Shown here: positions 38,819 to 62,643 of the stretch, one piece after another
Position numbering within the stretch: the first letter of the stretch is position 1
Layout: every line of letters starts with the position of its first letter
Assembly: GCF_004343035.1 (NCBI RefSeq)
Contig: NZ_SMCQ01000006.1
Coordinates: 1-64,000 of the forward strand
Length of the DNA stretch: 64,000 nt
Origin: Longibaculum muris
Lineage (GTDB): Bacteria > Bacillota_I > Bacilli_A > Erysipelotrichales > Coprobacillaceae
Direction of reading: 5' to 3'
The notes under the pieces: model-generated
Told to the model about the DNA's origin: nothing
What the model saw: the letters and a program-made list of their open reading frames with translations, nothing else
The model's database searches: none
Program-made: the position numbers and the translations under genes

Positions 38819-41242
38819 CTATAAATCATTAGCAATTCTACAGCCATTACGACCATGATTTTTTACATCATATAAAGCATTATCAGCTTTTCGATAAATA
38901 TCATCATAGCTCATTCCTTGTTTAGAAAATGCAACTCCAATACTAATTGTTGTAAGGATATCATCATATTGTTCTAGCTTATTAATAATACTTTGATAAT
39001 AATCAAAGATAACTTCTTCACTCTGTGGTTCTTTAATCGCAATAATAAATTCATCGCCACCCACACGACCAACAATATCATCTAAGTAAACAACACTTGA
39101 TAACACTTGAGCTAATCGTTGTAAAGCCAAGTCCCCAGAATAATGTCCATATTGATCATTAATATTCTTAAAGTTATCTACATCAATAATCATTAATGCA
39201 ATTGCATTATCAGGAGCATCTTTTAATAATTTCTCAACTTGTTCACGACTAGCAGAAGAATTATACAGATTTGTTAATCCATCCTTTTGCGCTAATTCTT
39301 TCCACAATAATTGTTCTTCTTTTTCACTTTGAATATCCGTAGCTTTTCCAATAACACGATTGACATGACCATTATCATCTAAAATAGGCTGAAGTATAAT
39401 TTTAAGCCAATGTCTTGATCCATCAACAAATGAAACATATTCTTCTACAACAATTCCTTTATGAGTCTGAATACATCTTTCAACTTGTTCATATCCAATC
39501 GCTTTCTTTTCAATATATTGTTCATATGTTGATTCAGGATAAATCAACTTAGCTCCCCCACCACTTAATGTTAAACAATCACTTTTCACGTTGTATTCAA
39601 TAAAACAATCTTTTGATAAATCACTGATTTGTTGGAAACGCTCATATTCTCTTAGAATTTTCTTACTGTTTTTCTTATTCATATAATATCTAAAAAAGAC
39701 ACTCAAACCTAAAATAATAGTAATCGTTAATAAAAATTGCTCAGGATTATTTTTAACATAATCACTAAATGATGTATTATCTTTAACATATGTTGCATTT
39801 CTAAAAATAATATCCTGCATTTTATAAGATGATGCATCAATACCTTTATTAATAATACTTAATAGTGTTGTTCCTGTACTTTTATGAATAGAGAAACAAA
39901 TATTTTGTTTGTGATTCTTTTCTTGTGGAAGAATACTTATATCATTTGACTGAAAATAACTGTTATAAAATTCAGCAATATAACTATTTATATAAGCATA
40001 ATCTGCATCTTGATTCATGACAGCTTTAAATGCTTCTAATGTTGATTCATAATATTCTATCTCACCTTGAAATTCACCATTATATTGCAAACCTTTGATT
40101 GAAGCTTGTTTTTTTCCTTTTAAATCACTACTTGATACTTTATCATTAATAACCAAAGACATGTTCGCTTCTAAAAAAGATTTTGATAAAGAGTAGTCTT
40201 GACTCCAATCTGAATAAGGATAAGTTACTCCAGCTTGTATTAAATAAGTCTTTTTAGCTAAAAGTTCCTGATACTCATCATACGTTTCAGCATAATCATA
40301 ATGAAACTTTAATCCACTTAACTTACCTATATTATCCAATAGTTCAATTGTAATCCCATTCAATTTTCCATTATTATCTTTAGATTGATAAGGTGCTCTC
40401 CCACCTAATACAGCAACATCAATCACTGGATTATCTTTCACAAACTTTTCTTCTAGTTCTGTTAAATTAAATTCAACATTCTTCATAGAAAAATATTCTT
40501 CATGCAATTCACTCATAAAATTAGGTTGTTCCTTATTTAAATCCATCATTGCACTATTTAATTTAGAAATAAGACTCGTTTTCCCTTTCGTTGTTACAAA
40601 ATAGAAAGAACGTGGAAAAAACTTAGCAATAATACGATAGTTCCCACTTAAAATAGATAAATCAGTTCCTACCATTGCATCAATCTTACCAGCTTGCAAA
40701 CCTTTAATCATATCTTCAATATTTGAATAAAACACTTGCTTAAACTTTATTCCATTTGTTTCACCAAATTCTGTTAAATTCTTGTTTTCTACCTTCTTTG
40801 TAGAAACAACTCCAGCTGTTAATTCTTTTGCTGAATAAATACTTGTTTCATTTAATTCAGCTTTATCAGAGGTTACATATAAAACCATATTACTTGTTCC
40901 ATAATTAGTAGCTGTATAATCATAAGTATCTGTCATAGATTCACTATAAACCATACCACCCATGATATCAACTTTCCCTTTAGCTACATCATCCATAGCC
41001 TCAACAATATTATCATTAACATCTTCTTTATCATAAACAACAAATTCAAATTCAAAATTTGTAAAACGTTCTAATTCTTTTAAATAATCATACGTATATC
41101 CTGTAAATTCCCCATCTTGTGTTAATTCAGTCAACCCCGGCTGAATTGGAAAAGCAACTTTTATTTTCTCTTTTGCTTGTATGGGTATGGTATTCAACAG
41201 CAAAACGAAGCAGCAAATCAATGTTGTTATAACTTTCCTCAT
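38819..41242 (-). CDS. Diguanylate cyclase with two periplasmic-type solute-binding domains
   Basis: An 807-residue signalling protein: signal/membrane start (1-23), two tandem family-3 solute-binding (SBP_bac_3) domains outside the membrane (about 25-245 and 270-490), one membrane segment (about 507-527), a PAS-like domain (about 535-645) and a GGDEF domain (about 650-807). The active-site GGDEF is intact at 728-732. The inhibitory RxxD site five residues upstream is absent (YLDD), so product inhibition may be lacking. It would make cyclic di-GMP in response to an extracellular amino acid or similar ligand. Its own mRNA starts with a c-di-GMP-I riboswitch and terminator, implying feedback by its product. 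Confidence 0.93.
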   Translation of the reverse strand: MRKVITTLICCFVLLLNTIPIQAKEKIKVAFPIQPGLTELTQDGEFTGYTYDYLKELERFTNFEFEFVVYDKEDVNDNIVEAMDDVAKGKVDIMGGMVYSESMTDTYDYTATNYGTSNMVLYVTSDKAELNETSIYSAKELTAGVVSTKKVENKNLTEFGETNGIKFKQVFYSNIEDMIKGLQAGKIDAMVGTDLSILSGNYRIIAKFFPRSFYFVTTKGKTSLISKLNSAMMDLNKEQPNFMSELHEEYFSMKNVEFNLTELEEKFVKDNPVIDVAVLGGRAPYQSKDNNGKLNGITIELLDNIGKLSGLKFHYDYAETYDEYQELLAKKTYLIQAGVTYPYSDWSQDYSLSKSFLEANMSLVINDKVSSSDLKGKKQASIKGLQYNGEFQGEIEYYESTLEAFKAVMNQDADYAYINSYIAEFYNSYFQSNDISILPQEKNHKQNICFSIHKSTGTTLLSIINKGIDASSYKMQDIIFRNATYVKDNTSFSDYVKNNPEQFLLTITIILGLSVFFRYYMNKKNSKKILREYERFQQISDLSKDCFIEYNVKSDCLTLSGGGAKLIYPESTYEQYIEKKAIGYEQVERCIQTHKGIVVEEYVSFVDGSRHWLKIILQPILDDNGHVNRVIGKATDIQSEKEEQLLWKELAQKDGLTNLYNSSASREQVEKLLKDAPDNAIALMIIDVDNFKNINDQYGHYSGDLALQRLAQVLSSVVYLDDIVGRVGGDEFIIAIKEPQSEEVIFDYYQSIINKLEQYDDILTTISIGVAFSKQGMSYDDIYRKADNALYDVKNHGRNGCRIANDL

Positions 41243-41264
41243 TCTATCTCTCCTCTATTTTATT

Positions 41265-41296
41265 AAAAAAGTGAACATATGAATTTATATGTCCAC
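41265..41296 (-). terminator. Riboswitch terminator before the diguanylate cyclase
   Basis: Ten-base inverted repeat with one G-T pair (41287-41296 with 41271-41280), 6-base loop, followed by six T residues (41265-41270) and then the cyclase ribosome binding site. The upstream sequence CACTACAA...TTGTCGTG can form an alternative hairpin sharing the first arm, a plausible antiterminator. Confidence 0.8.
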
Positions 41297-41314
41297 GACA
41301 AAATCATTATTGTA

Positions 41315-41396
41315 GTGCAACTGGCTGTCATACTTAAAAAGTTTAGACCCTATAGTTTTGCGTCATTGTTTTTCAACAACTTTGCCTTGTTTGTAC
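41315..41396 (-). ncRNA. Cyclic di-GMP-I (GEMM-I) riboswitch aptamer
   Basis: Read on the minus strand, the conserved GEMM-I elements appear in order: AAGGCAAA; a hairpin capped by the GAAA tetraloop (GTTGTTGAAAAACAAT); the strongly conserved GACGCAAA; CTATAGGGTCTAAA; and the 3' strand TGACAGCCAGTTGC. A closing P1 helix pairs GTACAAAC with GTTGCAC. This aptamer class binds cyclic di-GMP. It is transcribed from the promoter at 41401-41429 and followed by a terminator, 70 bases before the diguanylate cyclase start codon. Confidence 0.92.
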
Positions 41397-41400
41397 TTTT

Positions 41401-41429
41401 ATTTTAACGTTGACATCTTCAACTGTCAA
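41401..41429 (-). promoter_or_regulatory. Promoter of the riboswitch and diguanylate cyclase
   Basis: On the minus strand TTGACA (41424-41429), 17-base spacer, TAAAAT (41401-41406), positioned so that the RNA begins a few bases before the aptamer. Confidence 0.8.
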
Positions 41430-61883: not shown

Positions 61884-61959
61884 TGGGATATAGCCAAGCG
61901 GTAAGGCAACAGACTTTGACTCTGTCATTTCCCTGGTTCGAATCCAGGTATCCCAGCCA
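61884..61959 (+). tRNA. tRNA-Gln (TTG)
   Basis: Complete cloverleaf, TGGGATA/TATCCCA acceptor stem, anticodon loop CTTTGAC, encoded CCA. Confidence 0.97.
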
Positions 61960-61964
61960 ATTAT

Positions 61965-62040
61965 GGAGGTTTAGCTCAGTTGGGAGAGCATCTGCCTTAC
62001 AAGCAGAGGGTCAGCGGTTCGAGCCCGTTAACCTCCACCA
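61965..62040 (+). tRNA. tRNA-Val (TAC)
   Basis: Complete cloverleaf, GGAGGTT/AACCTCC acceptor stem, anticodon loop CTTACAA, encoded CCA. Confidence 0.97.
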
Positions 62041-62042
62041 TT

Positions 62043-62118
<76 letters not shown>

Positions 62119-62125
62119 TATTGAT

Positions 62126-62209
62126 GGGGAGGTAGCGAAGTGGCTAAACGCGGCTGACTGTAACTCAGTTCCTTTCGGTTCGGTGGTTCGAATCCGCCCC
62201 TCCCCACCA
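62126..62209 (+). tRNA. tRNA-Tyr (GTA)
   Basis: Class II tRNA with long variable arm; GGGGAGG/CCTCCCC acceptor stem, anticodon loop CTGTAAC, encoded CCA. Confidence 0.97.
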
Positions 62210-62216
62210 TTTCCAA

Positions 62217-62292
62217 GACCCGCTAGCTCAGTCGGTAGAGCATCTGACTTTTAATCAGAGGGTCAGGCGTTCGAGTCGCCTGCGGGTCACCA
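62217..62292 (+). tRNA. tRNA-Lys (TTT)
   Basis: Complete cloverleaf, GACCCGC/GCGGGTC acceptor stem, anticodon loop CTTTTAA, encoded CCA. Confidence 0.97.
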
Positions 62293-62306
62293 TTAAAAAT
62301 TGAATT

Positions 62307-62395
62307 GCCCAGGTGGCGAAATTGGTAGACGCACAGGACTTAAAATCCTGCGGACCTTAAAATCCGTGCCGGTTCGACTCCGGCCCTGGGCACCA
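62307..62395 (+). tRNA. tRNA-Leu (TAA)
   Basis: Class II tRNA with long variable arm; GCCCAGG/CCTGGGC acceptor stem, anticodon loop CTTAAAA, encoded CCA. Confidence 0.97.
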
Positions 62396-62402
62396 TTCTA
62401 AT

Positions 62403-62476
62403 GCGGATGTAGTTCAATGGTAGAACTTCAGCCTTCCAAGCTGACTACGTGGGTTCGATTCCCATCATCCGCTCCA
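62403..62476 (+). tRNA. tRNA-Gly (TCC)
   Basis: Complete cloverleaf, GCGGATG/CATCCGC acceptor stem, anticodon loop CTTCCAA, encoded CCA. Confidence 0.97.
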
Positions 62477-62484
62477 ATTTAAAC

Positions 62485-62560
62485 GCTTGAATAGCTCAGT
62501 TGGTAGAGCAATCGGCTGTTAACCGATCGGTCGTAGGTTCGAGTCCTACTTCAAGCGCCA
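62485..62560 (+). tRNA. tRNA-Asn (GTT)
   Basis: Complete cloverleaf, GCTTGAA/TTCAAGC acceptor stem with G discriminator, anticodon loop CTGTTAA, encoded CCA. Confidence 0.96.
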
Positions 62561-62567
62561 TTTTTGT

Positions 62568-62643
62568 GGCCTGTTGGAGAAACGGTTAACTCACATGCCT
62601 TTCACGCATGCATTCACGGGTTCGAATCCCGTACAGGTCACCA
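62568..62643 (+). tRNA. tRNA-Glu (TTC)
   Basis: Complete cloverleaf, GGCCTGT/ACAGGTC acceptor stem with one G-T pair, anticodon loop CTTTCAC, encoded CCA. Last tRNA of the array. Confidence 0.96.

Follow-up and report, generated by a model that had tools for sequence, protein, structure and literature searches.

A c-di-GMP-I riboswitch of predicted OFF type upstream of a diguanylate cyclase gene in Longibaculum muris

Does a diguanylate cyclase gene stand under the control of the very molecule that its product is predicted to make and, if so, does this ligand switch the gene on or off? The question is raised by a leader on the minus strand of a 64,000-nucleotide stretch of Longibaculum muris DNA (the window), in which an earlier note had placed a c-di-GMP-I riboswitch with its own promoter and terminator ahead of a GGDEF gene, leaving the sign of the switch open. 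We propose, with a probability of roughly 0.78, that this leader is a transcriptional OFF c-di-GMP-I riboswitch of the Cd1 type acting on a membrane solute-sensing diguanylate cyclase, the product of which represses its own gene. Whereas the switch class and its mechanism are already known, the target is unusual: according to a review, c-di-GMP metabolism is rarely under c-di-GMP riboswitch control (PMC6366702), which makes a diguanylate cyclase an uncommon target.

To assign the RNA class, the leader was compared with the Rfam model RF01051, which returned a full-length c-di-GMP-I (GEMM-I) aptamer at 41396-41313 (model positions 1-87), scoring 72.7 bits (E 2.4e-12) and thus far above the gathering threshold of 35. 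RF01051 was the top scorer of its clan at this site, also in a permissive local search, and weaker overlapping clan relatives were discarded; nearby sub-threshold matches to CRISPR-DR65 and RyhB were at chance level. All of the conserved elements previously quoted for this leader were located in the window (AAGGCAAA, the GAAA tetraloop, GACGCAAA, GGTCTAA and TGACAGCC), and the GNRA-type tetraloop is accompanied by its receptor, CUAUAGGGUCUAA...AUGACAGCC. We take the G at 41386 to be the equivalent of G20 (Vc2 numbering), as in aptamers of the c-di-GMP and not of the cGAMP type, and the C at 41317 is presumably the equivalent of the ligand-contacting C92 of Vc2. P1 is predicted to be nearly absent, with just 2-3 weak pairs possible, so that ligand affinity could be lower; a first candidate for this helix (AGUACAA/UUGCACU) was dropped because it uses P3 bases and the ligand-contacting C. 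The Cd1 aptamer of C. difficile has no detectable P1, yet binds its ligand (PMC9262584).

Read along the minus strand from 41429 to 41242, the leader is composed of a promoter, the aptamer, a short hairpin, a six-U terminator, GAGGAG and the ATG (Table 1). The promoter claimed previously was found at 41429-41401, 18 bases beyond the end of the upstream neighbour, a DUF188/YaiI family gene (41448), and would start transcription at about 41394-41396, placing the 5' end of the transcript at or inside that of the aptamer. TTGACA-17-TAAAAT is the best of five promoter-like sites; as 5.4 are expected from shuffles, such sites are not enriched and the promoter is plausible rather than proven. An inverted repeat, TTGACA-N8-TGTCAA (41410-41429), covers the -35 box and part of the spacer and is a possible operator; it was not seen in the promoters of the orthologs described below. 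The terminator that had been attributed to the leader (41296-41265) is the sole intrinsic terminator in 1 kb, with 0.1 expected from shuffles, and its 10-bp stem has a folding energy of -9.8 kcal/mol. It begins 16 nt past the aptamer match and has no base in common with it; the two can coexist.

Table 1. Features of the leader and of the downstream gene (window coordinates)
Feature	Position	Strand	Basis
Sigma-70/A type promoter, TTGACA-17-TAAAAT	41401..41429	-	11/12 consensus; consensus match only
c-di-GMP-I (GEMM-I) aptamer	41313..41396	-	RF01051, 72.7 bits, E 2.4e-12
P2 hairpin with GAAA tetraloop, GUUGUU-GAAA-AACAAU	41365..41380	-	RF01051 alignment
P3 with tetraloop-receptor region; 3' strand AGCCAGUU	41319..41357	-	RF01051 alignment, pairs checked
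C, first base of CACTACAA	41317	-	sequence
Antiterminator 5' strand GUUGCACUACAA; shares bases with the P3 3' strand and includes the presumed ligand-contacting C	41310..41321	-	MFE of nascent RNA
Antiterminator 3' strand UUGUCGUGGAC; occupies 6/10 bases of terminator 5' arm	41291..41301	-	pairing probability 0.85
Intrinsic terminator, GTGGACATAT-N6-ATATGTTCAC-TTTTTT; RNA stem GUGGACAUAU / AUAUGUUCAC, UUUUUU at 41270-41265	41265..41296	-	
Shine-Dalgarno sequence GAGGAG, outside terminator	41250..41255	-	sequence
Predicted diguanylate cyclase of 807 aa with SBP_bac_3 (matched in two stretches), a weak PAS match and GGDEF	38819..41242	-	Pfam
C-terminal GGDEF domain; DVDNFKNINDQYGHYSGD and RVGGDEF intact	38846..39289	-	

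With regard to the sign of the switch, the earlier note had held that the choice between hairpins decides, and had proposed that a pairing of CACTACAA with TTGTCGTG next to P1 competes with the terminator. These strands do pair (with one U-C mismatch), and the pairing does take up bases of the terminator 5' arm; on the aptamer side, however, it competes with the 3' strand of P3 and the presumed C92 equivalent and is not beside a real P1 helix, as its first strand starts within P3. In its extended form the pairing reads GUU(G)CAC(U)ACAA / UUGU(C)GUGGAC. In a nascent RNA lacking the terminator 3' arm, the minimum free energy structure holds the last strand of the aptamer paired with the terminator 5' arm (probability 0.85). 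At this decision point the antiterminator state and the aptamer-constrained state lie only about 0.5 kcal/mol apart in nearest-neighbour energies, which leave out the tetraloop-receptor contact and the ligand, so that ligand energy could tip the balance. Since the terminator is clear of the aptamer and the competing hairpin overlaps it, as in the Cd1 arrangement, the sign that had been left open can be predicted, and the prediction is OFF.

According to this model, at low c-di-GMP GUUGCACUACAA, including the ligand-contacting C, would pair with UUGUCGUGGAC in the nascent RNA and cover the terminator 5' arm over its first 6 bases, allowing read-through into the gene for the cyclase. When c-di-GMP is high, ligand binding would keep the last strand of the aptamer in P3 and in contact with the ligand; the terminator, of 10 bp, would form and transcription would stop at 41270-41265, ahead of the Shine-Dalgarno sequence. 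The net effect would be negative feedback on c-di-GMP synthesis. That the product of the enzyme controls its own gene, as suggested earlier, is the straightforward reading predicted from this layout, the class, promoter, terminator, hairpin and target all having been borne out.

Orthologs of the window cyclase in G005 and G021, which represent another genus (47-49% identity), have kept the GEMM-I aptamer and the layout but differ in platform sequence, and share the neighbourhood of the window locus on the upstream side (G005) or the downstream side (G021). Their antiterminators are strong (shuffle P 0.005 each). No GEMM-I was found ahead of the G035 ortholog, which lies behind the same DUF188 gene; this riboswitch-less ortholog at the same locus offers a natural comparison. 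A second diguanylate cyclase lineage (C21 type) has kept GEMM-I in four genomes from three genera, the window genome included, at 47-77% protein identity; in this lineage the antiterminators do not stand out from shuffles (P 0.19-0.85). Across 40 separate-terminator switches of the order, several of which are orthologs and hence non-independent, the aptamer end pairs better with its own terminator arm than with swapped ones (permutation p 5e-5).

In the window itself, the antiterminator is borderline against shuffles (P 0.08; 0.09-0.15 in a separate shuffle test), and the duplex of the aptamer end with its own terminator arm alone is no better than that with swapped partners. Moreover, folding energies indicate that the complete terminator beats the antiterminator at equilibrium, so that any switching would be kinetic and could be leaky. 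Borderline shuffle values and a terminator that wins at equilibrium render the size of the regulation uncertain, and both would also fit a constitutive attenuator, in which the aptamer does bind its ligand, the weak antiterminator is a poor competitor, and termination is ligand-independent or barely regulated. We consider this unlikely, given that strong antiterminators accompany the conserved layout in two orthologs and that the aptamer is canonical over the full length of the model.

An ON switch, in which the ligand promotes read-through and thereby positive feedback on c-di-GMP synthesis, has precedents both in pilM (PMC9262584) and in the same order, where the terminator of some GEMM-I switches takes in the 3' strand of the aptamer. 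The window terminator, in contrast, starts beyond the aptamer match and nothing in the bound state would block it, making an ON response quite improbable here and favouring the OFF prediction.

The gene downstream of the leader (41242-38819) is the GGDEF gene named previously. Its 807-aa product matches Pfam GGDEF (1.1e-37), SBP_bac_3 (4.1e-16) and, below the cut-off, PAS_4 (0.0016), and the solved structures nearest to it are diguanylate cyclases. The GGDEF signature and the DxDxFKxxND..GHxxGD motif are present, consistent with a predicted cyclase activity, and the sensor region would respond to putative solute ligands. The allosteric I-site RxxD, an optional and not a defining feature, is absent (YLDD in its place); many active cyclases lack it. 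Specificity for cGAMP versus c-di-GMP follows the G20 position in the aptamer and, in the enzyme, D versus S in GHxxGD, S being found in Hypr enzymes. GEMM-I relatives include cGAMP sensors (PMC9262584), but with G at the G20 position and a cyclase carrying D instead of the Hypr S, another cyclic dinucleotide such as 3',3'-cGAMP is very improbable as the ligand of the window aptamer.

A protein-based search of the genome contigs returned only generic GGDEF relatives. Domain searches of the 3.17-Mb genome gave about 32 hits to GGDEF and 11 to EAL, which is a large c-di-GMP repertoire; of the three GEMM-I aptamers in this genome, two are immediately followed by a GGDEF gene. Among the GEMM-I units surveyed in the host's family, 7 of 28 precede a cyclase gene, which makes the family convenient for asking how a cell with such a repertoire buffers c-di-GMP. 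Two general rules were considered and rejected. A link between the riboswitch and the I-site was suggested by the lack of RxxD in all seven GEMM-I-linked cyclases of the family; as RxxD is scarce in any case among the distinct GGDEF signatures of the window genome (about 3 of 20), the link is not significant. A division into OFF switches linked to cyclases and ON switches linked to adhesins was suggested by separate terminators in 7/7 cyclase switches of the family, four of them set by hand because the script had missed them or chosen a longer hairpin; many non-cyclase switches also have separate terminators, and the layout therefore does not discriminate cyclase-linked switches. Tentatively, and with more doubt than confidence, riboswitch repression may constitute in this family a dedicated product feedback of two conserved I-site-less cyclase lineages. 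If so, RNA would do in these lineages what protein product inhibition does elsewhere.

The survey also yielded some side observations. In two genera, the gene downstream of a GEMM-I aptamer looks by eye like a 23S rRNA uracil methyltransferase of the RlmD/TrmA kind (G000:C4:92300-92382, L152; G014:C97:4273-4360, L155). At both loci the 5' strand of the aptamer, AUAUGUAAAUG, has a perfect 11-nt complement further downstream, CAUUUACAUAU, and the small hairpins between these strands differ; judged from sequence, this pairing is possibly a different switching layout. GEMM-I aptamers with A for G at the G20-equivalent position, an exchange linked to cGAMP sensing, were found upstream of large exported-looking proteins (G029:C51:9598, G011:C3:34225 and G021:C3:130152). 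Six genomes of genus g78 (G301, G302, G303, G304, G305 and G306) carry three or four GEMM-I aptamers arranged in tandem at a spacing of about 130 nt. In the window, nine tRNA genes are clustered at 61884-62643 on the plus strand.

Several known systems can be compared with the window switch. The second cyclase-linked switch of the same genome (G000:C21:33583) is similar in its aptamer, short platform, separate terminator and directly downstream GGDEF gene, and differs in the unrelated sensor region of its cyclase and in the response-regulator gene that comes next. At the protein level, Pseudomonas RmcA is a periplasmic solute-binding (VFT) cyclase that, like the window cyclase, combines extracytoplasmic solute-binding domains with GGDEF; unlike the window cyclase it also contains EAL, and we know of no riboswitch controlling it. 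The Geobacter pilM ON riboswitch (PMC9262584) shares the GEMM-I aptamer fold and transcriptional control, but its terminator contains an aptamer strand, rendering the two mutually exclusive, its ligand is cGAMP and its sign is opposite. The closest counterpart is Cd1 (Cdi-1-3) of the C. difficile flgB operon (PMC9262584, PMC6200980), which likewise combines a GEMM-I aptamer without clear P1 and a downstream aptamer-compatible terminator; its antiterminator is made from the aptamer end and a terminator arm, as is predicted for the window switch. Cd1 is OFF by experiment (PMC9262584, PMC6200980, PMC3649979), whereas the same sign is predicted here, and it controls flagellar genes where the window switch would control c-di-GMP synthesis.
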